A stretch of DNA of 64,000 nucleotides from a virus: positions 1 through 64,000 of IMG/VR virus record IMGVR_UViG_3300005976_000005. One strand, 5' to 3'. The translations under genes and the position numbers were made by a program. The notes beneath the pieces were generated by a model, which ran no database searches, was not told the origin of the DNA, and saw nothing but the letters and a program-made list of their open reading frames with translations. Positions 9,625-48,610 of the stretch are shown piece after piece (positions within the stretch are counted from its first letter, which is position 1; each line of letters begins with the position of its first letter).

Positions 9625-9710
9625 ACTCAACCCTCCTTTATATGTATTTATATAAATTCTGGGACAAAAGTACATATTTTTTACAAAAAGTTCAAATTTT
9701 CTTTAATTAG

Positions 9711-21954: not shown

Positions 21955-22035
21955 TCTATTTAATCGTTTAAACCAGACTCCGACCGGGCGGGCTACCCCT
22001 GCCCATGGCCTCTTCTGATGGACTAGCCACCCTAT
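21955..22035 (-). ncRNA. candidate small RNA B of a three-member set
   Basis: Own promoter at 22042-22070, no ORF. It shares with RNA A (29403-29483) the segments AGGGTGGC, AGAAGAGGCCATGGGC, GGGTAGCCCGCCC, CGGAGTC and a terminal TTTA...TAAA hairpin. The first hairpin is kept by a compensating pair: GGTGG/CCATC here, GGTGG/CCACC in A. Confidence 0.6.
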
Positions 22036-22041
22036 GCTTAT

Positions 22042-25619: not shown

Positions 25620-25898
25620 ATTTAGGCGCCTAAATGGATTTTGAAAAAGTAAGTGGCTGATGAGGCGTCCCTCACCAGCCACCCACCCGTTGGCCAACAA
25701 CCAAGGAATTTGAGCTACCGGGCCACATGCCCAGGCGGGTTTTCCAAGTTCCCGCATCTCTCGGTAGACACCGATTGCTCTTTCTGGTACTTTCTAACAT
25801 TCCACTGGGTCCAGGGGTCTGGGTCCCTCTATAGCTTATATGTGCTGGGTGGGAACCCCATCTCTCTGCCCTTTCTTTGAATTGTTTCTCTCAACCAC
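25620..25898 (-). ncRNA. candidate ~250-nt structured RNA (RNA D)
   Basis: A strong promoter (25905-25933) drives a stretch with no minus-strand gene. Local hairpins include GCGGG/CCCGC, CGGT/ACCG and GGGC/GCCC, then a 13-bp hairpin (25653-25665 with 25670-25682, loop CGTC) followed by TTACTTTTTC that looks like the terminator. The palindrome TTTAGGCGCCTAAA follows at 25621-25634. Confidence 0.55.
25653..25682 (-). terminator. terminator hairpin of RNA D
   Basis: 13-bp stem with one G-T pair and a 4-nt loop, followed by a T-rich tract on the minus strand. Confidence 0.7.
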
Positions 25899-27211: not shown

Positions 27212-27262
27212 GTGGGGTGGCCCAGTGAACGGCGAGCTCGGACTCTGGTTTAGGCGCCTAAA
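27212..27262 (+). ncRNA. candidate small RNA C
   Basis: After its own promoter: GGGGTGGCCC, then CTCGGACTCTGG and the palindrome TTTAGGCGCCTAAA (27249-27262). It keeps both ends of RNAs A and B but lacks their central GGCCATGGGC part. Confidence 0.5.
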
Positions 27263-27285
27263 TAAACAGATATAAAAAGTCCCCC

Positions 27286-27492
27286 AGTTGCTCGGTTACA
27301 AACTCCATTCCAGAATGTGGTGCTACTGATAGAATGAATCGTGTCGGTGAGAAATTTAAGTGCCTTAAATGTAACCACGAAGACAATGCTGATTTAAACG
27401 CAGCCTTAAATATTCTCAAGCGATTCGTTACCGGACCCTACGGTGCCGGTTACAAACTAGAAAACTTAGCATTTCAAAATGTCCAAGTTTGA
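27286..27492 (+). pseudogene. C-terminal remnant of a zinc-ribbon TnpB
   Basis: Encodes PECGATDRMNRVGEKFKCLK, CNHEDNADLNAALNILKRF and a tail to TGA 27492: the CxxC...CxxC ribbon and NADxNAAxNI motif of TnpB. No start or RuvC part is present. It is a different TnpB lineage from that at 7731, which lacks the ribbon. It overlaps the end of the gene at 27466. Confidence 0.85.
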
Positions 27493-29402: not shown

Positions 29403-29483
29403 CATAGGGTGGCAAGAAGACCACCAGAAGAGGCCATGGGCGAGGGTAGCCCGCCCACTCGGAGTCCAGTTTAGGCGCCTAAA
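29403..29483 (+). ncRNA. candidate small RNA A
   Basis: Begins AGGGTGGC, hairpin GGTGG/CCACC, core GAAGAGGCCATGGGC and GGGTAGCCCGCCC, then CGGAGTCCAG and TTTAGGCGCCTAAA (29470-29483). Matches RNA B (21955-22035) over nearly its whole length in the opposite orientation in the genome. No ORF inside. Confidence 0.6.
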
Positions 29484-29497
29484 CTTAAACGCCTAAA

Positions 29498-29610: not shown

Positions 29611-29639
29611 TTGACAAGACTCCCGGAATATGTTATAAT
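29611..29639 (+). promoter_or_regulatory. consensus promoter for the plus-strand block
   Basis: TTGACA at 29611-29616, 17 bp, TATAAT at 29634-29639: a perfect match to the housekeeping consensus, stronger than the TATATT promoters elsewhere. Confidence 0.85.
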
Positions 29640-29692: not shown

Positions 29693-29926
29693 ATGGTAAG
29701 ACTTATTCAGTCAATCTTTACATGGTGTAAAGTCAACTTCATATCAATTATATTCTCAATCTGGATGTTCTGGGTCACAGCAAACATTATCCTAATACAG
29801 ATGAGACTGAATGGATTTGAGAAGGACATTGGATACATTTCAAAGTCCATTATCATTATACTGAATTCAATAGGATTCGATATACCATTAGAGATGGTCG
29901 ATGATGGTTCAGATAGCACATGTTGA
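29693..29926 (+). CDS. membrane protein, 77 aa
   Basis: AAAGGAGTCTCC precedes ATG 29693. Hydrophobic segment FISIIFSIWMFWVTANIILI (~15-34) with an amphipathic KSIIIILNSIGFDI later and an acidic end. First gene after the consensus promoter; function unknown. Confidence 0.65.
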   Translation: MVRLIQSIFTWCKVNFISIIFSIWMFWVTANIILIQMRLNGFEKDIGYISKSIIIILNSIGFDIPLEMVDDGSDSTC

Positions 29927-30035
29927 CTTGAGAGAAATGTGGGTTGACTTGAGAGAAATGTGGGTTGACTTGAGAGAAATGTGGGTTGACTTGAGAGAAA
30001 TGTGGGTTGACTTGAGAGAAATGTGGGTTGACTAA
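29923..30035. repeat. 21-bp tandem repeat, 5 copies plus partial
   Basis: Unit TTGACTTGAGAGAAATGTGG-G, each starting with a -35-like TTGACT. Scattered extra GGTTGACT copies follow at ~30108, 30127 and 30144. No -10 motif sits at 17 bp within the units, so these look like protein-binding iterons rather than promoters. Confidence 0.9.
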
Positions 30036-30192
30036 GAAGAGAATGGAGACTGTCAAATAAGAAATGACAATTTGGAAACCTGGATGGATAATCCGAGTGT
30101 GGGTTGACTAAAAGGCAAATAAAAGGTTGACTTTATATATTAGGTTGACTGGAGGAGGACTTTTTATTATATAATACAGTGGTCCTATCAGA

Positions 30193-30327
30193 GTCTACCT
30201 AGTCTACCTAGTCCACCGAGTCCACCGAGTCTACCTAGTCCACCAAGTCCACCAAGTCCACCAAGTCCACCGAGTCTACCTAGTCCACCGAGTCCACCAA
30301 GTCCACCAAGTCCACCGAGTCTACCTA
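30193..30327. repeat. 9-bp tandem repeat, 15 copies
   Basis: GTCTACCTA, GTCCACCGA and GTCCACCAA variants in mixed order, followed by an 11-bp TTCTGTGTGTG repeat (~30358-30390). It would code Gly-Leu-Gly repeats on the minus strand but no ribosome site supports a gene. 30440-30560 holds nothing clear. Confidence 0.9.
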
Positions 30328-30561
30328 GTCTTGCTGAGAGTCTACCAAGTCCTCTCTGTTCTGTGTGTGTTCTGTGTGTGTTCTGTGTATGTTTCGTAGT
30401 CATCCCATGTACACAGCAAGAGGGACGGTAGGCCCTATTTCTCATATGTTATTATCTTATTAGTAAGTGGTGGATAAATCGTGGGTAACTTTCTTTTATT
30501 TTAAGAACTTAGTTAAAATATGTTTTATACTGGAATCTCAATCAAATAAGTGTTTTGACAG

Positions 30562-30714
30562 ATGAAAGAAAGAATCGTATTAGGATATCTATGTATATGG
30601 ATGTTGGTAAATACATTGACAATCTTGTTTCCTGGGATTTCTACTACAAAACATTTGGTATTTTTTTTTGATACTCGTTACTTTCATGTTATGGGGGGGT
30701 TTCACAAGGGATGA
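30562..30714 (+). CDS. membrane peptide, 50 aa, first ORF of the plus-strand array
   Basis: MKERIVLGYLCIWMLVNTLT, one membrane segment. Overlaps the next ORF by 29 bp. The ribosome site is weak. Confidence 0.45.
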   Translation: MKERIVLGYLCIWMLVNTLTILFPGISTTKHLVFFFDTRYFHVMGGFHKG

Positions 30715-30847
30715 TTATCTTTACTTTCTGGAGTTCGGGAGTCTCGATGGATTGGATATAAGCATTATGTGCCTTTGTGGATGGACTTACTTGAGGAAAG
30801 GAATAACATATCAAGTGATCTATTTTGATGGAAGAGTACTTGATTGA
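30686..30847 (+). CDS. array ORF, 53 aa (MLWGGFT)
   Basis: Starts MLWGG and contains EFGSLDG, a string also at the end of the ORF at 31476. Overlaps the next ORF by 20 bp. Confidence 0.5.
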   Translation: MLWGGFTRDDYLYFLEFGSLDGLDISIMCLCGWTYLRKGITYQVIYFDGRVLD

Positions 30848-30935
30848 ATTGGAGTTTGGTGAAGAATGGGAAGGTGGATTTAATTTTGTTGTTGAATCAA
30901 GTAATGATGTTTTTTGGCTCATTGGCATATGTTAA
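30828..30935 (+). CDS. array ORF, 35 aa
   Basis: MEEYLIELEFGEEWEGGFNF..., ends by overlapping the next start (ATATGTTAA). Confidence 0.4.
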   Translation: MEEYLIELEFGEEWEGGFNFVVESSNDVFWLIGIC

Positions 30936-31141
30936 GGTTAGCATGGATTGACGAAAGAAATTTGGAAAGTGATCTTGAAAAGGCAAGATTACGTTTTGAG
31001 AAATATCTTTGTGAACTTGAAGAGGGGAATGAAATGGAAGTAATCTATAAGTTCGAATTGAGTTTGTGTGATTATCAGTTTGTAAGTATGCCTATTGGTT
31101 CACGTATTCTTTGCGTTAAGGAACAGAATGGTGCTATGTGA
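30929..31141 (+). CDS. array ORF, 70 aa (MLRLAW)
   Basis: MLRLAWIDERNLESDLEKAR, helical and acidic. Its end overlaps a 32-aa frame (31128-31226, MVLCDCDAEYEQRNVG...) that reads on to the next start, so the two may be one gene with a frameshift near 31125. Confidence 0.55.
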   Translation: MLRLAWIDERNLESDLEKARLRFEKYLCELEEGNEMEVIYKFELSLCDYQFVSMPIGSRILCVKEQNGAM

Positions 31142-31226
31142 TTGTGATGCTGAATACGAACAAAGGAATGTAGGAATATATGGTATTGGTCATCGGCGGA
31201 CATTTAAAGGAGAAGATATGGAATGA
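31128..31226 (+). CDS. array ORF fragment, 32 aa
   Basis: Bridges 30929-31141 and 31223 by overlaps at both ends; possible continuation of the upstream gene. Confidence 0.35.
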   Translation: MVLCDCDAEYEQRNVGIYGIGHRRTFKGEDME

Positions 31227-31495
31227 TAAGGTGGAAAATCTTTAGAAACAAGAAAGAATGTAGTGATGAAAAACTACACAGCAGTTCCTCGTTTATAAGA
31301 AAGATGGATGTCTTGGCTAAGAAATTATATCATGAAGAGATGTTTGACGGTTCTGAGATGTTGGATAGTATATGGGAATGTTTACTTGATGGAATGGAGT
31401 TTAGTGATACAATAACAACGGAGAATATTCTGTATAATGAAGTGTATTGTTTACAAACCAGAATACTAATAAAGAATGATGAGATGGATAATTGA
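31223..31495 (+). CDS. MxxW array protein, 90 aa
   Basis: Starts MIRWKIFRNKK, with the internal motif RKMDVLAKKLY (~28-38). GGAGAAG precedes ATG 31223. Confidence 0.65.
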   Translation: MIRWKIFRNKKECSDEKLHSSSSFIRKMDVLAKKLYHEEMFDGSEMLDSIWECLLDGMEFSDTITTENILYNEVYCLQTRILIKNDEMDN

Positions 31496-31676
31496 CAAGA
31501 GGTTTTTAGGTAGAGGCTTTTATGAATTGGAATATATGATTATGGAAGAGATGGATATTCTATTGAAAAAAGAGAAGATGGAAAGAACCAAATTAGATAA
31601 TGAAACATTCTATTACTCATTTGAAGAGTATGCTTACTATAATGAGTTCGGAAGTCTCGATGGATTTTCTGTATGA
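31476..31676 (+). CDS. MxxW array protein, 66 aa
   Basis: Starts MMRWIIDKRF, internal EEMDILLKKEK, ends NEFGSLDGFSV. Overlaps the upstream ORF by 20 bp. Confidence 0.6.
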   Translation: MMRWIIDKRFLGRGFYELEYMIMEEMDILLKKEKMERTKLDNETFYYSFEEYAYYNEFGSLDGFSV

Positions 31677-31840
31677 AGTACTGGAAAGCTAATAAACATC
31701 TTTACGGAATAGGAAGGGAAAGTATAGATAACTTGTTGTCGCATATGGACATAATGGTAATTAAGGAAATGTTTCCTGAAGATGACTTTGAAAGGATATC
31801 TGATTGGGTCGAAGAAAAAGAAGAAAGGAATAAACTATGA
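31673..31840 (+). CDS. MxxW array protein, 55 aa
   Basis: Starts MKYWKANKHL, internal HMDIMVIKEM. ATGA overlaps with the upstream stop. Confidence 0.6.
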   Translation: MKYWKANKHLYGIGRESIDNLLSHMDIMVIKEMFPEDDFERISDWVEEKEERNKL

Positions 31841-31958
31841 AGTCCTGGATTGTAAGAAAGAATATGAATTATCCGATAATATTATAGAAAGTCTGATAGA
31901 AATTGAATTGTTGAAACTTGAATATGGTCTGGCAGGAGAAGATCATAATGATGGTTAA
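31837..31958 (+). pseudogene. MxxW array member, frameshifted
   Basis: MKSWIVRKNMN, then a frame change near 31870 to LSDNIIESLIEIELLKLEYG. ATGA overlap upstream. Confidence 0.5.
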
Positions 31959-32209
31959 GTGACAGGCATCGAGGCAATTTTTTTAAGATTTCATTGCTTG
32001 GAATGTATTTGTGGAACTACCAAAGATGGTAGTATTGTTAAGATTGGTAATATCGTGTAATCAATTCAAAAATAGACAGTTACATAGAAACATTGATGGA
32101 CGTTTTGAAAATGAAAAAGTTCATGGAAAAGATATACGAGGCAAAGTGGACAACAGTTGACAAAGCAGAGATAACAGCAGTCTTCGAAGCAATGGTTGAC
32201 ATGTGGTAA
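31951..32209 (+). pseudogene. degenerate array members
   Basis: ATG 31951 reads MVK then TGA where the family has Trp. Later, a frame RVINSKIDSYIETLMDVLKM...AMVDMW ending TAA 32209 keeps the internal MDVLKMKK motif but has lost its start. Confidence 0.45.
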
Positions 32210-32214
32210 TTAAT

Positions 32215-32433
32215 ATGGTAAAATGGTGTAGAGCGAAAAGAGTTTCGAAACATATGGAGAATTATATGTTATTCTCTTGTCGGGAGGTAATAGATTCCGA
32301 AATGGACTTGATGAAAAAGAAAGAAATATATATGAGACATCCTGATTTAAGTCTCTCTGATTTTTCCGCATGGGTCGAAACTATAGAAAAATACGATGAG
32401 TGTGTTATCGATGACAGGAGGTACTACCCATGA
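32215..32433 (+). CDS. MxxW array protein, 72 aa
   Basis: Starts MVKWCRAKRV, internal SEMDLMKKKEIYM. The longer open frame with GTG 32203 has no ribosome site. Confidence 0.6.
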   Translation: MVKWCRAKRVSKHMENYMLFSCREVIDSEMDLMKKKEIYMRHPDLSLSDFSAWVETIEKYDECVIDDRRYYP

Positions 32434-32633
32434 TTAGGTGGAAATTTCATAAGGATTTCATGAAAATTGACAACTACAATATTCTCATGGATGCTTACAA
32501 ATCGAAAAAACAAATAAGAAGAAGAATGTGTTTAATATACAACGACGTTGACCTTAATAGTTTCAAACTTATTGTTGTAAATTCTTGTGATGATTACCTT
32601 TATAATCTGGAGAACTTGGATGATTATGTGTAA
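32430..32633 (+). CDS. MxxW array protein, 67 aa
   Basis: Starts MIRWKFHKDF; GGAGGT precedes the start; ATGA overlap upstream. Internal NILMDAYKSKKQ. Confidence 0.65.
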   Translation: MIRWKFHKDFMKIDNYNILMDAYKSKKQIRRRMCLIYNDVDLNSFKLIVVNSCDDYLYNLENLDDYV

Positions 32634-32835
32634 AATAGACAAGATAGGTAATCAAAACAATCATAACAAATTGACTCTTGACAACAAGTACATGTGGATT
32701 TACTATCCAGACGAAATTGATATAATTTTTGATATTTTAAAAGTACGTTGCGTCTTTGAGGAAATTGGAGGATTACTTGTTTGTGGAAAATTCTATAACA
32801 TATTTGAAGAATATATTGAGGATGTTGAAAAATGA
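32620..32835 (+). CDS. array protein, 71 aa (MIMC)
   Basis: Starts MIMCKIDKIG: Cys (TGT) where others have Trp (TGG). Internal DIIFDILKVRC. Overlaps upstream by 14 bp. Confidence 0.55.
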   Translation: MIMCKIDKIGNQNNHNKLTLDNKYMWIYYPDEIDIIFDILKVRCVFEEIGGLLVCGKFYNIFEEYIEDVEK

Positions 32836-32972
32836 TTAGATGGAAGATAGAGAAACTGATGATTGTTAATAAGGCAAAGAGGCACAAGAAAGAGATTGAC
32901 AAATGGATTGGTATACGGACTGACGTATTGAAGTCTAAAAAGTATAGAGAGAGAGTCAGAGAAGAAATATGA
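32832..32972 (+). CDS. MxxW array protein, 46 aa
   Basis: Starts MIRWKIEKLM; internal GIRTDVLKSKKYRE near the C-terminus. Overlap of 4 bp upstream and downstream. Confidence 0.6.
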   Translation: MIRWKIEKLMIVNKAKRHKKEIDKWIGIRTDVLKSKKYRERVREEI

Positions 32973-33016
32973 TGAGTTGGGAAGAGTGGCTTGAATGGAG
33001 TTTGGTGAATGATTAG
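32969..33016 (+). CDS. 15-aa array peptide
   Basis: MMSWEEWLEWSLVND: a truncated member that still overlaps both neighbours by the standard stop/start pattern. Confidence 0.4.
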   Translation: MMSWEEWLEWSLVND

Positions 33017-33263
33017 GTGGAAACTTTGTAAAATTTTGAAAATTGAAGGTGAATCATTACATTCTATCGTGGAACTTTCTGCTCATACCGACGTATTATT
33101 AAAACTTGATCTCATTGAGCAAAATGTAAACATTATCTTCAAGCAATGGGTTGACGAAAGAAAATGTGAAGGTGAAACATGTACTCCTAGAGATATAAAG
33201 GATTTCATTGAAATTGTTAAAATGGAAAAAGAATGTTATTTGGAGAAATTGGAAAATGATTAA
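33009..33263 (+). CDS. MxxW array protein, 84 aa
   Basis: Starts MIRWKLCKIL, internal SAHTDVLLKLDL. Overlaps upstream by 8 bp. Confidence 0.65.
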   Translation: MIRWKLCKILKIEGESLHSIVELSAHTDVLLKLDLIEQNVNIIFKQWVDERKCEGETCTPRDIKDFIEIVKMEKECYLEKLEND

Positions 33264-33453
33264 GTGGAAAATTTATAAAAGCGAAGGACATGATAGTCTA
33301 TATAACTTTGATATCAAGCCTTCTCACCTTACAGATGTATTACTTGTAGGAAACATAGTTGACTTTACAGACATGTTTTTCACTGTTGATGGACTTGGTA
33401 TATGTAATGGTTGGAATGACTTTATTAGTAAAATGGAGGATATGAATGATTAA
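33256..33453 (+). CDS. MxxW array protein, 65 aa
   Basis: Starts MIKWKIYKSE (ATG 33256 inside the end of the upstream gene, 8-bp overlap), internal SHLTDVLLVGNI. Confidence 0.65.
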   Translation: MIKWKIYKSEGHDSLYNFDIKPSHLTDVLLVGNIVDFTDMFFTVDGLGICNGWNDFISKMEDMND

Positions 33454-33664
33454 GTGGAGAGTTTACAGAACGACAAAGAATATAGATAGAGCAGTCAGAA
33501 ACCTAATGGATATTTACAACTGGAAACTGGCTGTTAAGTTTATTGAGAAGAAGTCATTGAAGGAAGATTATAGGGATAGTGAAGCTAATTGGAAGAGATG
33601 GTACAGTGAGAAACTTGACAATATGGAATCAACTGAAGTCTTCACTATAGATAGAAGAAGGTAG
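33446..33664 (+). CDS. MxxW array protein, 72 aa
   Basis: Starts MIKWRVYRTT, internal NLMDIYNWKLAVKF. 8-bp overlap upstream. Confidence 0.65.
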   Translation: MIKWRVYRTTKNIDRAVRNLMDIYNWKLAVKFIEKKSLKEDYRDSEANWKRWYSEKLDNMESTEVFTIDRRR

Positions 33665-33665
33665 T

Positions 33666-33694
33666 TTGACTAATCAAAAGGAAAATGTTATATT
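33666..33694 (+). promoter_or_regulatory. possible internal promoter
   Basis: TTGACT at 33666-33671, 17 bp, TATATT at 33689-33694. It abuts ATG 33695, so a transcript would start inside that gene and serve those after it. Confidence 0.5.
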
Positions 33695-33937
33695 ATGATA
33701 AGATGGGAATTTAAGAAACAGGGTCTTGTTTGGAATTCTAAGATAGAATATAATGATTCACCTTCAATCTCGTACAAATCAAGAAGAGGACCTTTATGTA
33801 ATACATTAATGGAAAGACACCGCAATGAATTGGAAAAGAATATTGTACTTAATAGAGTAATGGATGTTCTTGTTCACAAATCAATTTTAGAAACAAGATA
33901 TGGTACACACACAACAAGGGAGCTGCTTGACATATGA
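33695..33937 (+). CDS. MxxW array protein, 80 aa
   Basis: Starts MIRWEFKKQG, internal NRVMDVLVHKSI. The only member separated from its upstream neighbour (30 bp). Confidence 0.6.
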   Translation: MIRWEFKKQGLVWNSKIEYNDSPSISYKSRRGPLCNTLMERHRNELEKNIVLNRVMDVLVHKSILETRYGTHTTRELLDI

Positions 33938-34176
33938 TGTACTATAGAGCCGATAAAACGGATGGATTTTTCTATGAGGGATATCAAGGATACACTTTTA
34001 TGGCTATTACTGATGATTTAGAACTTATAGATGAAGGAGCCTGTACAAGAGAAGGTCCAAACAGTCTAAAGCTAAGTGCTATGACAGACGCAGTTTTATT
34101 TCAACAAGTATTCGGATACAAATGGTGGGTAGAAGATGAAGAGAGAATGGAAGATAATAAAGCCCAAACAATATAA
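33934..34176 (+). CDS. array protein, 80 aa (MMYY)
   Basis: Starts MMYYRADKTD with Tyr in place of Trp; internal SAMTDAVLFQQVF. ATGA overlap upstream. Confidence 0.6.
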   Translation: MMYYRADKTDGFFYEGYQGYTFMAITDDLELIDEGACTREGPNSLKLSAMTDAVLFQQVFGYKWWVEDEERMEDNKAQTI

Positions 34177-34372
34177 TGGATATATTACACGTCTTGAATT
34201 TAAGATTGATTATATTGGGAAAGTCACGGAAGTTATGACATCATATAACTCTGCTGATTTCAACAAGTATATTGATATCATGATGGATGAATTACTTTTC
34301 AGAGAGAAGATAATAAAGCCATCTGGTAAAAGAAGATTAGAAATTTATGAGGAGTTTATAAATCATGATTAA
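34136..34372 (+). CDS. array protein, 78 aa (MKREW)
   Basis: Starts MKREWKIIKP, internal IMMDELLFREKI. Overlaps upstream by 41 bp, the largest in the array. Confidence 0.6.
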   Translation: MKREWKIIKPKQYNGYITRLEFKIDYIGKVTEVMTSYNSADFNKYIDIMMDELLFREKIIKPSGKRRLEIYEEFINHD

Positions 34373-34577
34373 ATGGTCAATGAGGTTAAGGTCAATAGAT
34401 GAATGGCACGGAGTGGATGATTTAGAACATTATGCATTCCATGATAGTGAAGTTAAGAAAATTAAGGAAATGCTAATGGATGCTGTCAAGATGAAGAACA
34501 TTGAAGATAAATTAAGTCCATGTGACAAGTGGTTTTTTACAGGTATAAAAAATATGTACTGGAGTGAAGATGATTGA
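34365..34577 (+). CDS. MxxW array protein, 70 aa
   Basis: Starts MIKWSMRLRS, internal EMLMDAVKMKNI. 8-bp overlap upstream. Confidence 0.65.
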   Translation: MIKWSMRLRSIDEWHGVDDLEHYAFHDSEVKKIKEMLMDAVKMKNIEDKLSPCDKWFFTGIKNMYWSEDD

Positions 34578-34791
34578 GTGGAAAGTATATAAACAAACGG
34601 TGGTTCCATCACTTGCTAGCTTAAATGATTATTTTGACTCAATGAAGATGCTTAGAACAATAAAGAATTCAGAAAATCGTTTAGGGTATGTTACAGTTGG
34701 ATATATAGAAGACATAAGCAGAATATTCATATTAGGAAGTTCATCAAATAAAAGATATCTTGACCTTCTTGAGGACGGTAAAGTTGATTAA
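34570..34791 (+). CDS. MxxW array protein, 73 aa
   Basis: Starts MIEWKVYKQT at ATG 34570, internal YFDSMKMLRTI. 8-bp overlap upstream. Confidence 0.65.
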   Translation: MIEWKVYKQTVVPSLASLNDYFDSMKMLRTIKNSENRLGYVTVGYIEDISRIFILGSSSNKRYLDLLEDGKVD

Positions 34792-35014
34792 CTGGAAACT
34801 GAAAAAGCTATTTGATTTTGGGAAGACTCAGGACTTCTTCTTTTGTTATACTGATATAGTGAGAATGATTAAGGAAATAAAATTGACGACTTCACTTGGA
34901 AGATGTTTTATAACAATAGAGGACAGTAAGAGTGGTAAAAGATACACCATAAGTTCTGTAGAAGAATACCTCAATATGTTAGAGGATGGAATTAATGATA
35001 AAATGGAACTATGA
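34784..35014 (+). CDS. MxxW array protein, 76 aa, TTG start
   Basis: TTG ATT AAC TGG (34784) stands where ATG ATT would be, giving MINWKLKKLF; internal CYTDIVRMIKEI. 8-bp overlap upstream supports the TTG start. Confidence 0.6.
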   Translation: MINWKLKKLFDFGKTQDFFFCYTDIVRMIKEIKLTTSLGRCFITIEDSKSGKRYTISSVEEYLNMLEDGINDKMEL

Positions 35015-35357
35015 ACAGATAGACCTCTGGACATATTCCTTTGAAATCAAGGACGAGTATGGCAATTCCATCTACCGTATACATCTTCCAGTCACCTTCC
35101 TTACAAATAATTTTTCTACATGCTTCAAAGTCTCCGTCATTCTTATTCAGGACGAACTTCTGACCTTCTTCTTCACTTACTGCCATTGGTATGAATTTGT
35201 CCTGAAGATTAGACTTCACAAAGAGTACAATCTCATTGTCGTTACAAACTCACAAGAAGTCAATATAAGAAGTATTATAGAATTCGGTTTGAACTCTGAA
35301 TAGTCTGTAGTAATAATTTTTGAATTCCTTTAGATCAAATGATGGAATACCATCCAT
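34992..35357 (-). pseudogene. minus-strand gene with an in-frame TGA
   Basis: One frame reads MDGIPSFDLKEFKNYYYRLF...SYIDFL, TGA (35250-35252), VCNDNEIVLFVKSNLQDKF and on to GICPEVYLFIVPFYH. Both sides look like one protein. It overlaps the last plus-strand array gene head to head. Confidence 0.5.
34995..35303 (+). CDS. last MxxW array protein, about 102 aa
   Basis: Starts MIKWNYEQID. It is longer than the rest, and its 3' half lies opposite a protein-like minus-strand frame (34992-35357), so the array may have been joined here to an unrelated gene. Confidence 0.45.
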   Translation: MIKWNYEQIDLWTYSFEIKDEYGNSIYRIHLPVTFLTNNFSTCFKVSVILIQDELLTFFFTYCHWYEFVLKIRLHKEYNLIVVTNSQEVNIRSIIEFGLNSE

Positions 35358-35391: not shown

Positions 35392-35706
35392 CTAAACATT
35401 TTCTATTTTCTCCACGACAGTTGATTCAATTGCGTACTTTGCTAGTCTGCCAAGCTCTGGGTCTTCATTGTTTTTGAGATGAAGAATTCTGAATACTTTA
35501 TCATCCAGAATTCTTATCGCCGTATCAAAAGAATCATCACTTCTGAACATAAACTTCTTACAGAAGCTAATGTTATTCTTTTCTATTCTGGCTTTTATAA
35601 ATCCACCACGAATTCCTGTGAACTCAACTTTCCATTTGAGAGGACCTCTCTTATGCGTTATAGGAATCATCAAATCCTCACAATTCGATTGTAGTTCTAT
35701 CCTCAA
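35392..35706 (-). CDS. hypothetical protein, 104 aa
   Basis: Beta-rich start (LKWKVEFTGIRGGFIKARIE) and helical end. Overlaps the upstream gene by 29 bp. Unknown. Confidence 0.6.
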   Translation of the reverse strand: MRIELQSNCEDLMIPITHKRGPLKWKVEFTGIRGGFIKARIEKNNISFCKKFMFRSDDSFDTAIRILDDKVFRILHLKNNEDPELGRLAKYAIESTVVEKIENV

Positions 35707-35959
35707 TCTCGAAATCTTCTCCCTTCATGATTTTGTCAGCGAGAGTTCTTATTGACTCTTTCTTGTGCTTACAGTGGAGAACTGCGAGAGTCTTTGCTTC
35801 CTGGCTTTTCTTGTCAGCAACCATCTTTCTTATATTTTCTAAAAGGTGCTTTTCCTTTCTAACAACATCTGACCAACCAGCAACATACTCATCAGTATCT
35901 TCAGTCATACAAGCCATCTCAAAAGCGTTTTTGTACATACGGAAAACCTGTTTCATCAT
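35678..35959 (-). CDS. hypothetical helical protein, 93 aa
   Basis: CAAGGAG precedes ATG 35959. Lysine-rich helices (VVRKEKHLLENIRKMVADKK). Unknown. Confidence 0.6.
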   Translation of the reverse strand: MMKQVFRMYKNAFEMACMTEDTDEYVAGWSDVVRKEKHLLENIRKMVADKKSQEAKTLAVLHCKHKKESIRTLADKIMKGEDFEIEDRTTIEL

Positions 35960-35985
35960 CAACTCCTTGTTCGTTGTTTGAAACT

Positions 35986-36141
35986 TTACTTTTTACCAAA
36001 AAACCGATTCTCAATTCTATCCATATTTTCCAAAATAAAGGCAAGTATACACATTGTTAGTACTGCCGCTAGTACGGGAAAGAAAACTAAACAGAATGCC
36101 ATAAATCCCATTTGTAATGATTCAATAAAAGAAGGTGTCAT
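35986..36141 (-). CDS. membrane protein, 51 aa
   Basis: MTPSFIESLQ then a long hydrophobic segment (GFMAFCLVFFPVLAAVLTMC) and a charged tail RIENRFFGKK. GAGGAT precedes ATG 36141. Confidence 0.6.
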   Translation of the reverse strand: MTPSFIESLQMGFMAFCLVFFPVLAAVLTMCILAFILENMDRIENRFFGKK

Positions 36142-36143
36142 GT

Positions 36144-36365
36144 CTATCCTCTCTGTTCAATAATGTCATTACACAATTCAGATATTCCCTTATTCTTGCT
36201 TGTTCTGTAAAGTAGAGCAGTCATAAAGTCACGATCGAGAAGCTTCTCAACAATCGAAATTTCATCATCATTCAAACAATGGAAGGTAGGAGAGCTTCCT
36301 CTCCAACATTCCAATAAACCTTTTCTCTTGTTGAGCTTGAAGAAAGGTTGTATTCTTTCCATCAC
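36144..36365 (-). CDS. hypothetical protein, 73 aa
   Basis: Contains LNDDEISIVEKLLDRDFMTA then LLYRTSKNKGISELCNDII. The LLYRT/G string recurs in the gene at 36743 (GALLYRTHEKLG), suggesting the two share a helical unit. Confidence 0.6.
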   Translation of the reverse strand: MMERIQPFFKLNKRKGLLECWRGSSPTFHCLNDDEISIVEKLLDRDFMTALLYRTSKNKGISELCNDIIEQRG

Positions 36366-40605: not shown

Positions 40606-41205
40606 TCAATCCTTATTCAGGTTAAAGTAATCATCAAAATTATTCATATGAGCATGAGTCCAGTAAGCACCAGAGTATTCATTATCATCAATCCAAAACA
40701 TGACGCAATAGCAATCTGGTTTTGGTCTGAAAGTAACATCCATCGAATCACAGTACCCAATGACTGGAAACTTATATGGAAAAGGATAATGATTATTTTT
40801 AAAAATATAAATGTCGTTGGGCATTCCATTATGTATAAATGAATTTTTAATTGTGAAATCATCCGGACTCATTATTTTTGGAGGTTGTTTATTTTCTTCA
40901 TTTATCTTTTTATTTCTACCTTTCTCATAAGCATCTGTTTTTGATAGATAAAACCATTCAGGAGCATCATCCATTTCACTAAAATTTAGTTCGTTTTGTG
41001 TAAAGACTAGTTTTGAAACGGGAATAGAAAACCCAACTTCATAAAACCGAGGACCGGTGATTCCTGCGAATTTTCTACCGTTTTCAATTTTTATAACGAA
41101 CTTTTCTTCCATTTTCCATATATTAATCTGATCCTTATAGCAAACAATCTCATTAATCCAAACAAACTTTGTATTTGGTAGAAAATTGAATTTGAACTTT
41201 TTCAC
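40606..41205 (-). CDS. hypothetical protein, 199 aa
   Basis: Beta-rich and aromatic (GITGPRFYEVGFSIPVSKLV, DCYCVMFWIDDNEYSGAYW). No motif recognised. Confidence 0.6.
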   Translation of the reverse strand: MKKFKFNFLPNTKFVWINEIVCYKDQINIWKMEEKFVIKIENGRKFAGITGPRFYEVGFSIPVSKLVFTQNELNFSEMDDAPEWFYLSKTDAYEKGRNKKINEENKQPPKIMSPDDFTIKNSFIHNGMPNDIYIFKNNHYPFPYKFPVIGYCDSMDVTFRPKPDCYCVMFWIDDNEYSGAYWTHAHMNNFDDYFNLNKD

Positions 41206-41207
41206 TA

Positions 41208-41705
41208 TTAGTCCTCCTTATAAGCTCTGAAAACGCAACTCAGATACTTTCTTGAAACCTGAAATATTTTTGAAGACTGTATTTTTGTTTTTCCACAATT
41301 CCCAGCAACATTCAATACTTCTATTTTGTTTTTGTCAATCCATTCGACTACATCAAACAAAAAAGGTAAATCATTCAAATCACAATCAAAAGATGGCTTA
41401 TTATAAAAATTGATAGCCTTCTTAGTACAAATAGTCCCTGGTGAATTGAAGTCGTATGCCAGTATTATTGTTGCTTGTGTATCCCTGACATTAGCATAAG
41501 TTCTTGGTTGATACCTACTAGAATCATGCTCAATCAATCCTAGCTTACAAAGTTCAGGTCTAGGACCATATCTTGTTTTCCAACCCTTAGGAGCCCATCC
41601 ACCAGTTTTGATACCCATATCCCTGGCTGCGGCAAGGCCAGCAATATCGGCACCGTACTGGCCTCCACTATGGACTTCGATAAGTTTGTGTTGTTTGTAA
41701 TTCAT
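41208..41705 (-). CDS. SLOG/molybdenum-carrier-like nucleotide-binding protein
   Basis: 165 aa. SGGQYGADIAGLAAARDMGI then TGGWAPKGW, RTYANVRDTQATIILAYD, SPGTICTKKA match the Rossmann-like MoCo_carrier family of the SLOG superfamily, which binds nucleotides or nucleotide-derived signals. Role in a phage unknown; signal sensing or sequestration is possible. Confidence 0.75.
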   Translation of the reverse strand: MNYKQHKLIEVHSGGQYGADIAGLAAARDMGIKTGGWAPKGWKTRYGPRPELCKLGLIEHDSSRYQPRTYANVRDTQATIILAYDFNSPGTICTKKAINFYNKPSFDCDLNDLPFLFDVVEWIDKNKIEVLNVAGNCGKTKIQSSKIFQVSRKYLSCVFRAYKED

Positions 41706-41811: not shown

Positions 41812-43231
41812 TTCTTCTCTCGCACCAAAGTGCGAATAGCAACCCAAGTATAGGATTTTACCAACCAAAGAACAAGACTTTCAACTCGCACGTATGTGCG
41901 AATAGCAACCCCTTGAAGGACTCCTTAACAATGGTGGTGGTGGGCGTCTTTCAACTCGCACGTATGTGCGAATAGCAACTGGTATTATACAGGTACTTGA
42001 GGACAAACCAAACCTTTCAACTCGCACGTATGTGCGAATAGCAACATCCATAATATATCCCCGGTCACAGTCCAGAAATTCTTTCAACTCGCACGTATGT
42101 GCGAATAGCAACGAGGGATGCTCCTTAACAATGGTGGTGGGCGTCTTTCAACTCGCACGTATGTGCGAATAGCAACCAATATAACGGTAGCAATGCCAAC
42201 GCATGAGCTCTTTCAACTCGCACGTATGTGCGAATAGCAACTACAAAAGCAAGAATGTTTTTGTAGTGGAGATAGCTTTCAACTCGCACGTATGTGCGAA
42301 TAGCAACGAAAAAGTACCCGAACTAATATATAATATTAGACCTTTCAACTCGCACGTATGTGCGAATAGCAACGAGACAATACGGTCCATTCTGGATATG
42401 GCGGACACTTTCAACTCGCACGTATGTGCGAATAGCAACGTCTGCTAAATCCTGTCCTCTCAGAAGTGGACTTACTTTCAACTCGCACGTATGTGCGAAT
42501 AGCAACGTCCAGAGTATACGAAGATGATTGAGCACCTGCGCTTTCAACTCGCACGTATGTGCGAATAGCAACCTGACTAAAAGGCATTTTTTTCCTGCTT
42601 TTAGACTTTCAACTCGCACGTATGTGCGAATAGCAACACCGTTACAACCGTTACAAATTAGATACTCCTCGCTTTCAACTCGCACGTATGTGCGAATAGC
42701 AACGCTGAAGAAAACGAAGTCATAAAGCGAGACATAACTTTCAACTCGCACGTATGTGCGAATAGCAACTATCGTATTCAAAAATCGTTTATCTAGTCTA
42801 TCCTCTTTCAACTCGCACGTATGTGCGAATAGCAACTATACTTCCCTAGCGAAATGAAGTCAGGATACCTTTCAACTCGCACGTATGTGCGAATAGCAAC
42901 ATTTTGGACTGGAGACTTGGAAAAGGACTGTAACTTTCAACTCGCACGTATGTGCGAATAGCAACTCAAGGAGAAGGGTTTTCTCTCAGAAGAAGATTGT
43001 CTTTCAACTCGCACGTATGTGCGAATAGCAACCCCTTTCAAACTCACTAAGTGCCCCGAAAATGTGCTTTCAACTCGCACGTATGTGCGAATAGCAACAT
43101 CCAAACAGCCCATAAGTTGTTTAGCGAAGATACTTTCAACTCGCACGTATGTGCGAATAGCAACACTTTACGAGTCTCACCGGCCAAAAACAAGGGAAAC
43201 TTTCAACTCGCACGTATGTGCGAATAGCAAC
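41812..43231 (-). CRISPR. CRISPR array, 22 repeats of 32 bp, 21 spacers
   Basis: Repeats at 41812, 41878, 41948, 42014, 42081, 42145, 42210, 42276, 42342, 42408, 42475, 42541, 42606, 42672, 42738, 42805, 42869, 42934, 43001, 43067, 43133, 43200. All are identical except the first, whose loop and tail differ, marking the trailer end; spacers are 32-38 bp. Read with the cas genes (minus strand) the repeat starts GTTGCTAT, holds the hairpin TCGCAC-ATAC-GTGCGA and ends GTTGAAAG, a typical crRNA 5' handle. The leader is then 43232-43397. Identical repeats indicate recent use or array turnover. Confidence 0.98.
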
Positions 43232-43397
43232 CATTCATTTGTAAGTCCTTGATTTCAAATGTCCCAAAACCAGGTTTCCGGGAACCACCCAAAAATCAGG
43301 CTTACAATCACAACAAACAACCATAAGAATTACATAACTCATTGATTTGAAACAAGCGCGAAACCTCCAGTCTTTTTATGATAGATTGTGGTTCCCG

Positions 43398-43916
43398 CTA
43401 TTCAAATATGTTTATCATTCCATATCCAACAAACTTGAGATTTCCTATTCCATTTGTCAATGCTTCTCTGAACTTTTCAGAATCTATAACAGTAAGAAAA
43501 CCTTTCACCATCACAGTCCAAGCAGGAACCTCCAATCCATTCTTTGAGTATGTCCTGTACCCATCAAAGGATAATTTGAACTTAGCATCAACACCAGATT
43601 CCTTGAGTTTTCTATTCACCCATTCATTTGTTTTGTCATTATCAATCTTAATTTTCTTTCTTGTCTTTGTATCCCTGTAAACAGGATTCATTCTTATACT
43701 GAATATATGTTGCTCGCCTTTCTGAGTAACATCACCAATGTCAATCTGACGGCAATCATCCAATTCTTTACCAGGAGCAATTTCACTCAATACATATAAA
43801 GAATGACTATTCTGTTGCCAAAGAACCTTTTGATCTCCCTCAAATAATGACTTCACCTTCTGATGAATCTTGTAGTCATTACTTTCGTTTATTGGGCTTC
43901 TTCTCGATATGTACAT
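43398..43916 (-). CDS. cas6: Cas6e-like crRNA-processing endonuclease
   Basis: 172 aa. MYISRR start and YKIHQKVKSLF (His18, placed like the catalytic His of CasE), FSIRMNPVYRDTK, TNEWVNRKLKESG, and the C-terminal TVMVKGFLTVIDSEKFREAL, NGIGNLKFVGYGM follow the Cas6e (Cse3/CasE) pattern rather than Cas6f. It would cut the repeat after the hairpin. It overlaps cas5 by 38 bp and is the last cas gene before the array. Confidence 0.75.
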   Translation of the reverse strand: MYISRRSPINESNDYKIHQKVKSLFEGDQKVLWQQNSHSLYVLSEIAPGKELDDCRQIDIGDVTQKGEQHIFSIRMNPVYRDTKTRKKIKIDNDKTNEWVNRKLKESGVDAKFKLSFDGYRTYSKNGLEVPAWTVMVKGFLTVIDSEKFREALTNGIGNLKFVGYGMINIFE

Positions 43917-44808
43917 AACATTCTTCTCCCTTCATAAGAGGCAATGTTTCTTTCTCAATTATGTTTGTCCAATGATGAATACCAACAATCTTGACAAGTC
44001 CACCTTCCATAAATGTGGCTGTGCCAGTACCCATAGAAATTCTCTTTTCAAGTTCATCATCCATTGGTACAACAATAGTGGCATTTATCTTTGATATAGA
44101 CTCAGGCCATCTACCAACCATTAGTCCATTAAGTTTCTTACAAGCACAATGAATACTTATTGAGTCAGCCATATGTGCCTTATTATTTTTCTTAGTTATT
44201 ATCTCATCGTTCAGGATGGCATTACTTATAGAAGTCTTTCTATTGGATTTGAGCAAATCACACAGATTTTTGACTTCCTTAGTCTTCTTCTTTGTATTGA
44301 GAAAACTAATAGCATCTTTCATACGCGAAACATCACTAAACTCAAAACCAAGATTAGTTAGTGTTTCTTTTATCTTCTCAAAGATTTCATCACCAACTTC
44401 TCTTCTTACTCTTTCCCAAGTAAAGAAACCTCTAACAGGATAGTTCACTCCATTCAGTCTAATAGATTCCTTTACTGGACTCCAGGCTTGTAATGATGAC
44501 TTTTGTGATGCCTTCGTTTCTCTTGGGTAAGGAGCCTTCATTTCATTATCATCAAAATAAAATGAGTGGACTAATGCTCTTGACTTTTCAGCAAGATCAT
44601 CAAAGTACTTGTCTCCAGTATATTCAACCTTTCTTAGTGAAGGTACTGGTCTCTGTCCACATAAGACTCTCAGTAAGTTGGCAACTTGATTCGTTGCCAA
44701 CCTACCAGGAGGAATTTTGTAGTGGCTGACCTGTTTTTTCATCATACCATTCGGTCTATGATATGGAAAAATACCAGCACCCCTAACTTCAAGTATCAAA
44801 GCTTTCAT
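43879..44808 (-). CDS. cas5: Cas5-like protein, candidate large Cas5 of a type I-F2-like complex
   Basis: 309 aa between cas7 and cas6. Motifs are weak; YHRPNGMMKKQVSHYKIPPG and the long middle insertion fit a Cas5 enlarged to take over Cas8 functions, as in type I-F2 (I-Fv). The call rests mostly on position and size. Overlaps cas7 by 4 bp. Confidence 0.6.
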   Translation of the reverse strand: MKALILEVRGAGIFPYHRPNGMMKKQVSHYKIPPGRLATNQVANLLRVLCGQRPVPSLRKVEYTGDKYFDDLAEKSRALVHSFYFDDNEMKAPYPRETKASQKSSLQAWSPVKESIRLNGVNYPVRGFFTWERVRREVGDEIFEKIKETLTNLGFEFSDVSRMKDAISFLNTKKKTKEVKNLCDLLKSNRKTSISNAILNDEIITKKNNKAHMADSISIHCACKKLNGLMVGRWPESISKINATIVVPMDDELEKRISMGTGTATFMEGGLVKIVGIHHWTNIIEKETLPLMKGEECYVHIEKKPNKRK

Positions 44809-45959
44809 ATGATTTCTCCAAGAATATTCTCTTTCTTAGCAGTTTTCTTTTTAGTTGTCTTCTTGGCTGCCTTTTTAGCAAGAGCAACTTCCTTAGCAGA
44901 TGCTTTTGAATCCGATATATTATCATAGAGAGCAACAGCATCTTCTTCTGATACTTGATTGTAGAAAACCTCAAGGTCGCTCGGTTTGACTTTGATATCT
45001 TTTATTGAACTGATAGAATGATAATTGCTCTCATTGGATGGATTATCATTCAGTGGGTCCTTCAGATACATAATCTTTACATCTTCAACTCTGGCATATG
45101 CCTTAGTCTTTTCTATACGGAGACTCATTAGTCTTTTCAGAAATTCCTTTACAAGAAACAAACACTGTTCTTGACTAAGAAGAATACCTTCTTCTGGAAG
45201 TTCATTGACAGCAGTCTTCTTCTGATACCATCCCCAATCACTCACTTCGGAACCAAGATTCTTACTGAGATTCTTGATAAAGAATTCTACGTGATCTGGA
45301 TGAACTGCCATTCTGTCGTACCTATTTGACATTGAGATGAACTGAAGATTATCGATATCAATACTACCCTCGAAAAGGTACTCAATGTCACCAACAGATT
45401 CCTTATAGTAGAGTGAAGTGTTACCTTCATCATCATTGGACTTCTTTCTATTCTTTGGTACTCTGGCACTGTGGACCTCGAAGTTGGGATGAGTCTCGCT
45501 TGTTTGAACAGCATCACAAGTATTCACAGGAGACTTTCTTTTCAATGTAGAATCATCCTTGATTGTAAACATATGTCCCTTCAAAAGATTAGCAGGAGAA
45601 GCCAACAGCTTTACCAAAGCAGTTGGTGCGTGAACTATATCATTGTTGTGAAAAGGGAAGTCATCTCCAAGAATATGACTACGAAGACACTCAGCAGAAA
45701 TCTTGACCTTTGCCTCGCATTCATAAACTTCATCTCCATTGTCAAAAGTCTTCTTGATTCTGTTACCATTACTATCAGTCTTGTAGGTATACTCGTGTTT
45801 AGCAAGCATTATGTTTTTCGCTTGCTTTCCATTATTGTTGAATACTGCGCTGAATTCTGGAAAGCATCTCCTTACAATTGTAACAGAGTCCTTAGAATCA
45901 TAGTTGACAATACCTCTTCCGACAATCTTTGCTCTGAAATAAATTGACCTAATTCCCAT
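44805..45959 (-). CDS. cas7: Cas7fv-like CRISPR backbone protein
   Basis: 384 aa. IRSIYFRAKIVGRGIVNYDS, KVKISAECLRSHILGDDF, NLLKGHMFTIKDDSTLKRKS, SIDIDNLQFISMSNRYDRM and LRIEKTKAYARVEDVKI line up, by my recall, with Cas7fv of the minimal type I-F2 system. The end is a Lys/Ala-rich tail (KKAAKKTTKKKTAKKEN). Cas7 binds along the crRNA. Overlaps cas3 by 11 bp. Confidence 0.7.
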   Translation of the reverse strand: MGIRSIYFRAKIVGRGIVNYDSKDSVTIVRRCFPEFSAVFNNNGKQAKNIMLAKHEYTYKTDSNGNRIKKTFDNGDEVYECEAKVKISAECLRSHILGDDFPFHNNDIVHAPTALVKLLASPANLLKGHMFTIKDDSTLKRKSPVNTCDAVQTSETHPNFEVHSARVPKNRKKSNDDEGNTSLYYKESVGDIEYLFEGSIDIDNLQFISMSNRYDRMAVHPDHVEFFIKNLSKNLGSEVSDWGWYQKKTAVNELPEEGILLSQEQCLFLVKEFLKRLMSLRIEKTKAYARVEDVKIMYLKDPLNDNPSNESNYHSISSIKDIKVKPSDLEVFYNQVSEEDAVALYDNISDSKASAKEVALAKKAAKKTTKKKTAKKENILGEII

Positions 45960-48267
45960 TTTCTGACATCCTTTCTTTGAGTGTTTTCAAATCATCCTTT
46001 TCAATAATACCTAACTCATGACTATAGACTCTGGAAACATCCGGCAAAGGTGTATCCGGGTCTAAAGAAATTCTAAACCACTGCGCTATACTTTTAGGAA
46101 ACTTCTTCTTTTTGAGCATTGATTCTATTTCTTCGAATCCTGCTCTGGCTAGTGCCTTCATACAAAACTTTGAATCAATTTGGTAACCCTTATTTTCATA
46201 CCTCCTTTTCAATTCAAAACCATCACTGAGTCCAACAATCTCATCTGGTCCTAACCAATCATCAGAGTCTACCTTCTGTAAAGAAAAGTTGTATGATAAT
46301 CCCGGACTTCTTAGAGACTTGTTATTCACAGTTTTTGAAAATCCATCTTTATCTTTCTTTTTGGTTGGAGCAAAAGTATTCAAACCAACTTTAGAGTTCA
46401 GACCATTTATGTAAGAATCCCTTATATAGTTGTAAACATCATTTCCATACTTCTCATAGAAGCTATTGTATATGTTGTAAAGGTCATTCTGAGTAATAAG
46501 CGAATCATTCTTTATCGAATTTCTAAGATGGCCAATCCACAATTCTCTGAGCTTCAGATTGTATGTACACATTATAGACATTCTTTCAGAAGCATCTTGA
46601 GAAATATCAAGAGATACAAAATTTATAGTTGGATTGAAATTCTGTAAATTTCCCCATCTATCTATTCTTCCACATATTTGTACATCCGACTCAGGTGAAT
46701 GTATGGAAGTAGAAAGGTGAGCAAAAGAAATATCCATTGCTGCTTGTACAACCATAGCTGAAGAAAGGTTTTTACCATCATTGATACCACTACCTTTCTT
46801 ACCGAATATATCCAATATTCTTTCTTGTTTGGCGCTCCTGTCTATATCATTGAATTTACTATGAAGAATATTATCATATCCTTCAACATATTCAAATTGA
46901 GTATTCCTTACTGAGTTATGCTTTGTGAGCTTTCCTTTTTCACAATTACCCATTGTGTTTGAAAATCTTGCTTTGTACACACCAACATGTGCCGAAGGAT
47001 AGTGACTATTCTTACTAGGAAGAATCAGTGTTTTGTTATAGTCGTCCCATAATTCGTTTATATTCATTGGAGTGGCACTAAGAAGCATCGTCCTGGAATT
47101 TTTAGCAACCTGATGTCTTGCCTTCATAAATGTTATGAATGCCGCAAACAAAGGCTGATTCGATACTAACTCGTGGAACTCGTCAAAAATAACATCAGAA
47201 CCAATGGTTGTAAAAAGTCTATGTCCAGTCTTATTCTTTACCATTGGAGAAAGTAAGTTGTCTATGTTAGTCACAACTATATCCGAGTTGAACTCATCAT
47301 CTTCATCTTCTCGAATATTAATTCCATCAACTCTTCTTCCAGTTAGATAAAGCTCAACACTACATTTTACATCAAGTAAATCCATTTCACTTTTTATGTT
47401 TCTGTAAACTGCTTCTGCTACTGAGTTTCTTGGACAAACCCAAATTATCTTTCTCTTTCTATCCAATGCCCAGTTTATTCCTATAAGTGTTTTACCAAAA
47501 CCTGCTGGAGCCTTTATAATAGTAGTCTTGGAATTTTTAGAATCATCGATACATTTCTGCTGTATAGAAAATCTTTCTTTGTCATAAGTATCAGGACATT
47601 TTATGATACCTGATATACTACTCGATACCAATTCTTTTATTGCTATTTCATCTCTTTCATGTGATGAAACATATCTGTCAGCAGAAATCAAACAAGTTCT
47701 GAGTATCAACTGGACAGAATTGAAGTCATTGTTCATTGATATTATTCTATTACCTGTCTGTATCTTTCCGTAAAGACGCGGCACATTGATACTTTCTTCT
47801 GGTTCCCAATCTCTGGTTCCTGGTATGTTGACATTACCAACCACAATATCCCAAAACTCATTCATTATTCTTTCATCTGAATCGGAAATCAGCGAAAGAA
47901 TATTGTCATGAGTGTCGTAACAACTCCCGTCTGGAAGTTTTGGCTTTGGGTGATGCCAATATATAGGATTCAGTATCTTACTTGACGATATTCTCTGGGC
48001 ACAATAAGCCCAGGAAATCTCGTGGTGGCCTGGAAAATTTACATCATAGTTAGATAAATCAATACCATTCATAGCATTGTTGAGAAATGACTGAAAGTAA
48101 TCAGTACATTTTCCAATGTCGTGAAGTAAACCAGAATAGTAAACACATTCAACCAAGTCATTCGACAGACCTATATACTCTGCCATTTCCTTGGCTAAGT
48201 TTGCTACTCTGGTGCTATGCTCAATAAGAGTTTGACCGTTTGATTTAGCAAGTAGATTTTCAATCAT
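45949..48267 (-). CDS. cas3: Cas3 HD nuclease-helicase
   Basis: 772 aa from ATG 48267 (AAAGGA precedes). HD part: EHSTRVANLAKEM, GLLHDIGKCTDYF, IYWHHPKPK. Helicase: IIKAPAGFGKTLIG (Walker A), VIFDEFHELV, LLSATPMN, QICGRIDRWG. Cas3 unwinds and degrades DNA recruited by the crRNA complex. Lacks an N-terminal Cas2 fusion, unlike normal type I-F. Confidence 0.92.
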   Translation of the reverse strand: MIENLLAKSNGQTLIEHSTRVANLAKEMAEYIGLSNDLVECVYYSGLLHDIGKCTDYFQSFLNNAMNGIDLSNYDVNFPGHHEISWAYCAQRISSSKILNPIYWHHPKPKLPDGSCYDTHDNILSLISDSDERIMNEFWDIVVGNVNIPGTRDWEPEESINVPRLYGKIQTGNRIISMNNDFNSVQLILRTCLISADRYVSSHERDEIAIKELVSSSISGIIKCPDTYDKERFSIQQKCIDDSKNSKTTIIKAPAGFGKTLIGINWALDRKRKIIWVCPRNSVAEAVYRNIKSEMDLLDVKCSVELYLTGRRVDGINIREDEDDEFNSDIVVTNIDNLLSPMVKNKTGHRLFTTIGSDVIFDEFHELVSNQPLFAAFITFMKARHQVAKNSRTMLLSATPMNINELWDDYNKTLILPSKNSHYPSAHVGVYKARFSNTMGNCEKGKLTKHNSVRNTQFEYVEGYDNILHSKFNDIDRSAKQERILDIFGKKGSGINDGKNLSSAMVVQAAMDISFAHLSTSIHSPESDVQICGRIDRWGNLQNFNPTINFVSLDISQDASERMSIMCTYNLKLRELWIGHLRNSIKNDSLITQNDLYNIYNSFYEKYGNDVYNYIRDSYINGLNSKVGLNTFAPTKKKDKDGFSKTVNNKSLRSPGLSYNFSLQKVDSDDWLGPDEIVGLSDGFELKRRYENKGYQIDSKFCMKALARAGFEEIESMLKKKKFPKSIAQWFRISLDPDTPLPDVSRVYSHELGIIEKDDLKTLKERMSENGN

Positions 48268-48610
48268 TGAATATCCTTTTCCCAAATTCATACAACTTTA
48301 CTGGATACCTTCTATGGATAAGCCTCAAAGCAAAGTACTCCCTCAAGTTCCTTCTGACGACCTCAAGAAAATCTGTAGCAATTGTTGAATCGTTGCTTCT
48401 TCCCTCAACAAGTAATGGATGTTTTATATGAGTCACACAGAATACTAAGTCAGGAGATTTAGTTATAATCATATCCAAATCAGCCATTGTTTCCTTTGGG
48501 ATTGAGTTCATATAGATATCCCAGGAACCAATCATTACATCCTGTTGGACTCCAAATTCATAAGTATAAATATCTTTTTTAGTTGAACCTCTATCTACAA
48601 TTAAAATCAT
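48260..48610 (-). CDS. small protein upstream of cas3, 116 aa
   Basis: MILIVDRGSTKKDIY, later DLVFCVTHIKHPLLVEGRSN. It overlaps cas3 by 8 bp. In type I-F the Cas2 domain lies N-terminal to Cas3; a detached, changed Cas2 is conceivable but unsupported by a clear motif. Confidence 0.5.
   Translation of the reverse strand: MILIVDRGSTKKDIYTYEFGVQQDVMIGSWDIYMNSIPKETMADLDMIITKSPDLVFCVTHIKHPLLVEGRSNDSTIATDFLEVVRRNLREYFALRLIHRRYPVKLYEFGKRIFND

Follow-up and report, generated by a model that had tools for sequence, protein, structure and literature searches.

The window analysed here is the first 64,000 bases of a virus record of 149,281 bases, a record that may itself be a fragment of its phage genome. 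Structural genes of this genome are of T4 type and its tail sheath matches the sheaths of T4-like phages; it is a large T4-like phage carrying about 16 short, distantly related genes in one cluster. The cluster occupies 31,223-35,014 of the plus strand as 16 mostly overlapping ORFs of 46-90 amino acids (W01 to W16), accompanied by one truncated copy (34,995) and by remnants (30,710, 31,837 and 32,072). Features of the locus are as follows.

29611-29639 (+): predicted sigma70-type promoter, TTGACA-17-TATAAT, 1.6 kb upstream of the array
29693-29926 (+): 77-aa hydrophobic protein, probably membrane, first ORF past the promoter
29922-30330 (+): leader with short tandem repeats (21 bp x5.3; 9 bp x15.4)
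30562-31222 (+): decayed stretch, with a C-terminal fragment of a member at 30710-30753
31223-31495 (+): W01, MIRWKIF.., 90 aa, weak fit to the family
31476-31676 (+): W02, MMRWIID.., 66 aa, profile match
31673-31840 (+): W03, MKYWKAN.., 55 aa, profile match
31837-31887 (+): remnant MKSWIVRK.., 16 aa
32072-32203 (+): member remnant without a start, ..LMDVLKMKKFMEKI.., 25.6 bits
32215-32433 (+): W04, MVKWCRA.., 72 aa, profile match
32430-32633 (+): W05, MIRWKFH.., 67 aa, profile match
32626-32835 (+): W06, MCKIDKI.., 69 aa, W start lost, later motifs retained
32832-32972 (+): W07, MIRWKIE.., 46 aa, C-terminus lost
33009-33263 (+): W08, MIRWKLC.., 84 aa, weak fit to the family
33256-33453 (+): W09, MIKWKIY.., 65 aa, profile match
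33446-33664 (+): W10, MIKWRVY.., 72 aa, profile match
33695-33937 (+): W11, MIRWEFK.., 80 aa, profile match
33934-34176 (+): W12, MMYYRAD.., 80 aa, weak fit to the family
34136-34372 (+): W13, MKREWKI.., 78 aa, weak fit to the family
34365-34577 (+): W14, MIKWSMR.., 70 aa, weak profile fit, clear ortholog in the relative G001
34570-34791 (+): W15, MIEWKVY.., 73 aa, profile match
34784-35014 (+): W16, TTG start, INWKLKK.., 76 aa, profile match
34995-35057 (+): last copy, cut short, MIKWNYEQIDLW.., followed by sequence antisense to a minus-strand gene
35392-36365 (-): three small neighbour genes, beside the array in both phages, the block being inverted in the relative

The initial annotation had described about 25 small plus-strand ORFs here. 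The array itself stands, while the count falls to the 16 members, the truncated copy and the remnants, since the higher figure had taken in remnants and spurious ORFs. Its limits also contract at both ends: the block had been drawn from 30562, where the DNA is decayed up to the first intact member at 31223 (the fragment at 30710-30753 is 80% identical over 44 nt to 31623-31666), and the last ORF listed, 34986-35303, is coding-like for about its first 21 codons, the remainder being antisense to a minus-strand gene. That the block points right among left-pointing genes is borne out. Nearly all long ORFs of the window lie on the minus strand with the array as the clear exception, and the sign of the plus-strand GC skew flips as well, from −0.13 and −0.17 in the flanks to +0.37 within the array, indicating that the plus strand has long been the coding strand there.

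In the window genome and in its relative, the 264-kb phage IMGVR_UViG_3300018080_000099 (G001), the array follows a site resembling a promoter, a hydrophobic ORF and a leader rich in repeats. The exact promoter consensus has four matches in 149 kb, the one at 29611 being the sole plus-strand match. G001 has a 127-aa hydrophobic ORF in the equivalent place, a likeness of position without sequence homology shown, and a Pfam search with the 77-aa protein (29693-29926) returned no match. Paired DnaA-box-like 9-mers (TTATCCACA) set 11 nt apart were also seen at 27140/27151 and 29498/29509 of the window and at 49643/49654 of G001; each phage has one such pair upstream of its array, and the pairs could be a replication origin or a protein-binding site. 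An intergenic element starting with GGGTGGC is found at 29407-29490 (+), 21969-22036 (-), 27215-27270 (+) and 25620-25684 (-). At least three copies come after sigma70-like promoters, and the copies at 29407 and 22032 are 83% identical over 71 nt. The element matched no Rfam family above threshold; its fold z-score of −2.5 applies to the 29407 copy only, and it is possibly a small phage RNA.

The genes are joined by a constant start seam, ATGATTARRTGG. The repeated start sequence noted initially is confirmed at DNA level, with nine copies of ATGATHARRTGG in the window, all on the plus strand and all inside the block, against 0.27 expected. M-x-x-W starts, as had been claimed, are the rule (14 of 17), the exceptions being those at 32626 (MCKI), 33934 (MMYY) and 34136 (MKREW). 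Stop/start overlaps, likewise proposed before, exist at 13 of 16 junctions and measure 4, 8, 20 or 41 nt. A Shine-Dalgarno sequence precedes 12 of the 16 window starts (background 17%), lying inside the preceding gene, and 13 of 18 starts in G001 (background 26%). When scored with codon usage trained on the phage's long genes, all 15 ORFs covered (W06 was left out) were best in their own frame. The second motif of the initial annotation (RKMDVLAKK, SAHTDVLLKL, HLTDVLLVG, RVMDVLVHK) proved real, and a third, a C-terminal F..YL...E segment, can now be added. The shared core thus consists of the M-x-x-W start, the middle D-[VIL]-L..K and the C-terminal segment, with variable stretches between them. 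Predicted isoelectric points range from 4.2 to 10.4, which argues against a common role based on charge; acidic members are numerous, and cysteines number 0-3 in most.

A held-out profile built solely from G001 served as the independent test of kinship, with each window member's own shuffles as controls. At full length 11 of the 16 members beat at least 99.5% of their shuffles, with W01, W08 and W12-W14 fitting weakly. After removal of the first six residues on both sides, 8 of the 16 still did so; similarity therefore extends past the first four residues, the test set in advance by the initial annotation. A joint profile, which matches its own building members by construction, gave 13 matches in the window genome (12 in the array, the other one marginal at 14.8 bits) and 18 in G001, all within 43-48 kb. 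Save for that marginal match, its matches were confined to the two arrays and contig L015. Judged by these profile comparisons, the array members are one divergent protein family, the copies being mostly about 15-40% identical in pairs.

The two full arrays and one contig edge are everything found of this family. Scanning a viral collection for paired M-x-x-W starts yielded true members in G001 and L015 only; the same start pattern in 84,980 bacterial and archaeal genomes gave 37 matches and no profile match, with L015 as positive control. No close relatives of W09 were found in IMG/VR, and a composite-query search gave no real matches, a result that counts little because the query was self-assembled. 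Small paralogs beginning M-I-[KR]-W (..NCTYD..SCSEEDF..) also occur on another phage contig (L011:6510-11621); by profile they have no relation to the present family. Three contigs of one Bacteroidales metagenome-assembled genome (L133, L136 and L140; JAIPAE01) carry the paired-start DNA pattern without matching the protein profile.

The search for tandem arrays in other phages that had been proposed was productive. G001, whose tail sheath is 70% identical to that of the window phage, has an array of about 20 members on its minus strand (48.1-42.7 kb), many starting MWKW and headed by a methyltransferase gene and then an N-terminally truncated member. The profile is matched best by its members at 46704-46904 and 45474-45689. 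Its profile-level matches indicate conservation as coding sequence in a related genome, the opposite of which the initial annotation had named as a refutation. The closest pairs of the window are W03-W04 and W15-W16. The strongest pairs of G001, G03-G07 (z 9.6) and G04-G08 (z 11.0), are each four genes apart and in register, indicating duplication of multi-gene blocks; in the tree, G04, G06 and G08 group together. Together with the remnants of the window, this agrees with the earlier view of a family that grows by duplication and decays. Genes next to the array are overall 28-63% identical between the two phages (28-42% for the three small neighbour genes). The second small neighbour family, of TTALLYR type, was located at 36144-36365 and 35678-35962 of the window and at 41434-41664, 41161-41427 and 40869-41198 of G001, which has two tandem copies; its proteins have weak C-terminal similarity to the next gene. 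Kinship of the array family with these proteins was looked for by comparison and none was found.

Window members have no clear one-to-one partners within the G001 array. The sole clear ortholog is that of W14, at 144034-144264 of G001 (38% identity, E 4e-15; z 12.6, the next best being 5.9), which lies just downstream of the primase gene and 100 kb from the G001 array. Given the 70% identical sheaths and the 28-63% identical neighbours, this single ortholog indicates turnover of the array. In L015 at least two members directly follow a primase-like gene, whose product is 58% identical to that of G001, close to a gp32-like gene. Because the W14 ortholog and the L015 members both sit behind primase genes, the family is present at two loci or more, with members apparently moving from one to another; W14 fits the profile weakly, so that this proposal leans on the shared M-x-x-W start and a D-A-V-K-M segment. 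On comparison of the two genomes, the relative carries the same cluster rebuilt, with hardly any member pairing one to one, a picture that a fast-changing kit of small proteins would give.

Pfam, PHROG, PDB and fold searches with the members matched no family. Single-member matches to DUF7687, DUF7642, CarD_C and phrog_11729 were isolated and in disagreement and were rejected as the family. The best PDB profile hit had an E of 0.039 over 16 residues. Structure prediction, another suggested check, contributed little: the two AlphaFold models were weak (mean pLDDT 65 and 73) and fold searches with both gave nothing below E 1. A PADLOC scan of two members produced one weak match only (E 0.0027), and a match to a known inhibitor, sought by sequence and by fold with these low-confidence models, was not found.

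The initial statement that no named system resembles this one holds for the family and not for the architecture. Phage G and Escherichia phage 121Q have been reported to carry tandem arrays of more than 30 similar genes (PMC5646251), Bacillus phage G having about 35 zinc ribbons in tandem (PMC7824862), and Salmonella phage Munch has a tandem array of 13 predicted DNA condensation genes (PMC8273493). With 16 members in the window and about 20 in G001, the present arrays likewise have more than ten head-to-tail paralogs on one strand of a large myovirus, an arrangement read as tandem duplication in G and 121Q. By contrast, the copies in those phages are 'very similar' and the present ones are mostly about 15-40% identical, overlap and have coupling signals. 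Munch shares the tandem paralogs of a jumbo phage but has a different protein family. The profile found no match in the genomes of G, 121Q and Munch, with G001 and L015 matched as positive controls, nor was the family found in T4, BUCT-ZZ01 or RaK2, the last giving two marginal matches (13.6-14.2 bits). Tandem arrays in jumbo phages being known, what appears to be new, as far as sequence can tell, is the protein family, its degree of divergence and its translational coupling.

Two other elements of the window were noticed. A CRISPR repeat array with cas genes and a further, unassigned 309-aa gene lies on the minus strand at 42145-48291; its best matches are Cas3fv for Cas3, Cas7fv/Cas7f for Cas7 and Cas6/Cas6e for Cas6. 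In G001 the two genes flanking this locus are separated by about 270 bp, a gap free of cas genes. A serine-resolvase gene adjoins a TnpB-like gene at 7731-9675, IS607-type by layout, and an apparent C-terminal TnpB fragment lies near 27.4 kb (about 27320-27470).

Computation shows a family, its coding, coupling signals, duplication and turnover. The account we prefer, with roughly even confidence, is that of a multigene family in one coupled operon that changes by recombination and whose variable parts bind different host proteins; as to function, the members are most likely early proteins directed at host factors and undergoing diversification. Host RNA polymerase would start at the strong promoter (29,611) and read through the operon, presumably early in infection, and ribosomes would move from gene to gene via the stop/start overlaps and the Shine-Dalgarno sequences inside each previous gene. 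Each protein would present the shared core with variable stretches between, and the near-identical start seam at the junctions would permit unequal recombination, so that cassettes could be added, lost or swapped with coupling intact. The variable parts would most likely bind different host proteins, being defence or host-takeover targets. Anti-CRISPR and other anti-defence genes of phages lie in operons whose products are small, evolve fast and show no recognisable domains, and these clusters usually combine unrelated families. The size, coupling signals and turnover of the array would fit this pattern if, as predicted, it is co-transcribed; it differs from such clusters in being one family. 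The closest experimental precedent is found in T4, where the 85-aa inhibitor gene tifA is amplified in tandem through microhomology and the phage thereby escapes the toxIN defence (PMC9391042). Both cases involve tandem copies of a small gene, that of T4 for counter-defence, but the dmd-tifA copies are recent and arose under laboratory selection, whereas the present array is old and diversified, with no T4 homology found. Counted against our preferred account are the weak models, the weak fit of W01, W08 and W12-W14, that no member resembles a known counter-defence protein, and that divergence at such low pairwise identities could reflect relaxed constraint. In a more specific and tentative version, recombination would have built a library of binders with a fixed scaffold, seam-bounded cassettes and variable segments that switch targets, that is, an inhibitor set that is re-tooled.

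Alternatively, all members could be adapters that bind one partner through the start and the D-[VIL]-L motif, their variety tuning one phage process such as replication or transcription. Constant motifs within an otherwise varying sequence favour this, as do the position of the L015 members, after a primase-like gene and close to one resembling gp32, and that of the W14 ortholog just downstream of the G001 primase; yet the conserved positions may merely be the fold core, the isoelectric points span 4.2-10.4 and the main G001 array is about 100 kb from its primase, so we regard this as rather unlikely. We are still more doubtful of a mostly neutral expansion, in which tandem duplication given spare capsid room was followed by drift, leaving few members functional. 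Truncated and broken copies are indeed common, most residues are weakly constrained, and spare room has been argued for jumbo phages (PMC5646251). Against it, codon usage and frames are intact in all 15 scored ORFs, the motifs are retained across two genomes otherwise little alike, and the W14 ortholog is 38% identical.

Nucleic-acid-binding or condensation proteins multiplied for quantity, as in phage G and Munch, are improbable here. Published jumbo-phage tandem arrays are such proteins (PMC7824862, PMC8273493), but many of the present members are acidic and most have few cysteines, profile searches gave no DNA-binding domain match, G, 121Q, RaK2 and Munch contain no significant homology, and the copies have diverged strongly, as copies retained for dosage would not. 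A sequence artefact or non-coding repeat, which the short ORFs and the repeated start motif in the DNA might suggest, has next to no chance of being right: the same protein motifs arise from different codons in G001 (ATGTGGAARTGG vs ATGATHARRTGG), and the frame and strand signals, the profile and the codon results contradict it.

The array provides a profile for a protein family missing from the libraries searched. Amplification of the tifA type is known from the laboratory, and the array looks like its natural, long-lived outcome, a diversified family in one operon. If the reading of recombining binders is true, the cassette seam doubles as the translation-coupling signal. If the members hit different host proteins, as in the account we prefer, they would constitute a ready set of some 35 small candidate inhibitors, and the array would serve as a model of family building in phages as opposed to the acquisition of single genes.
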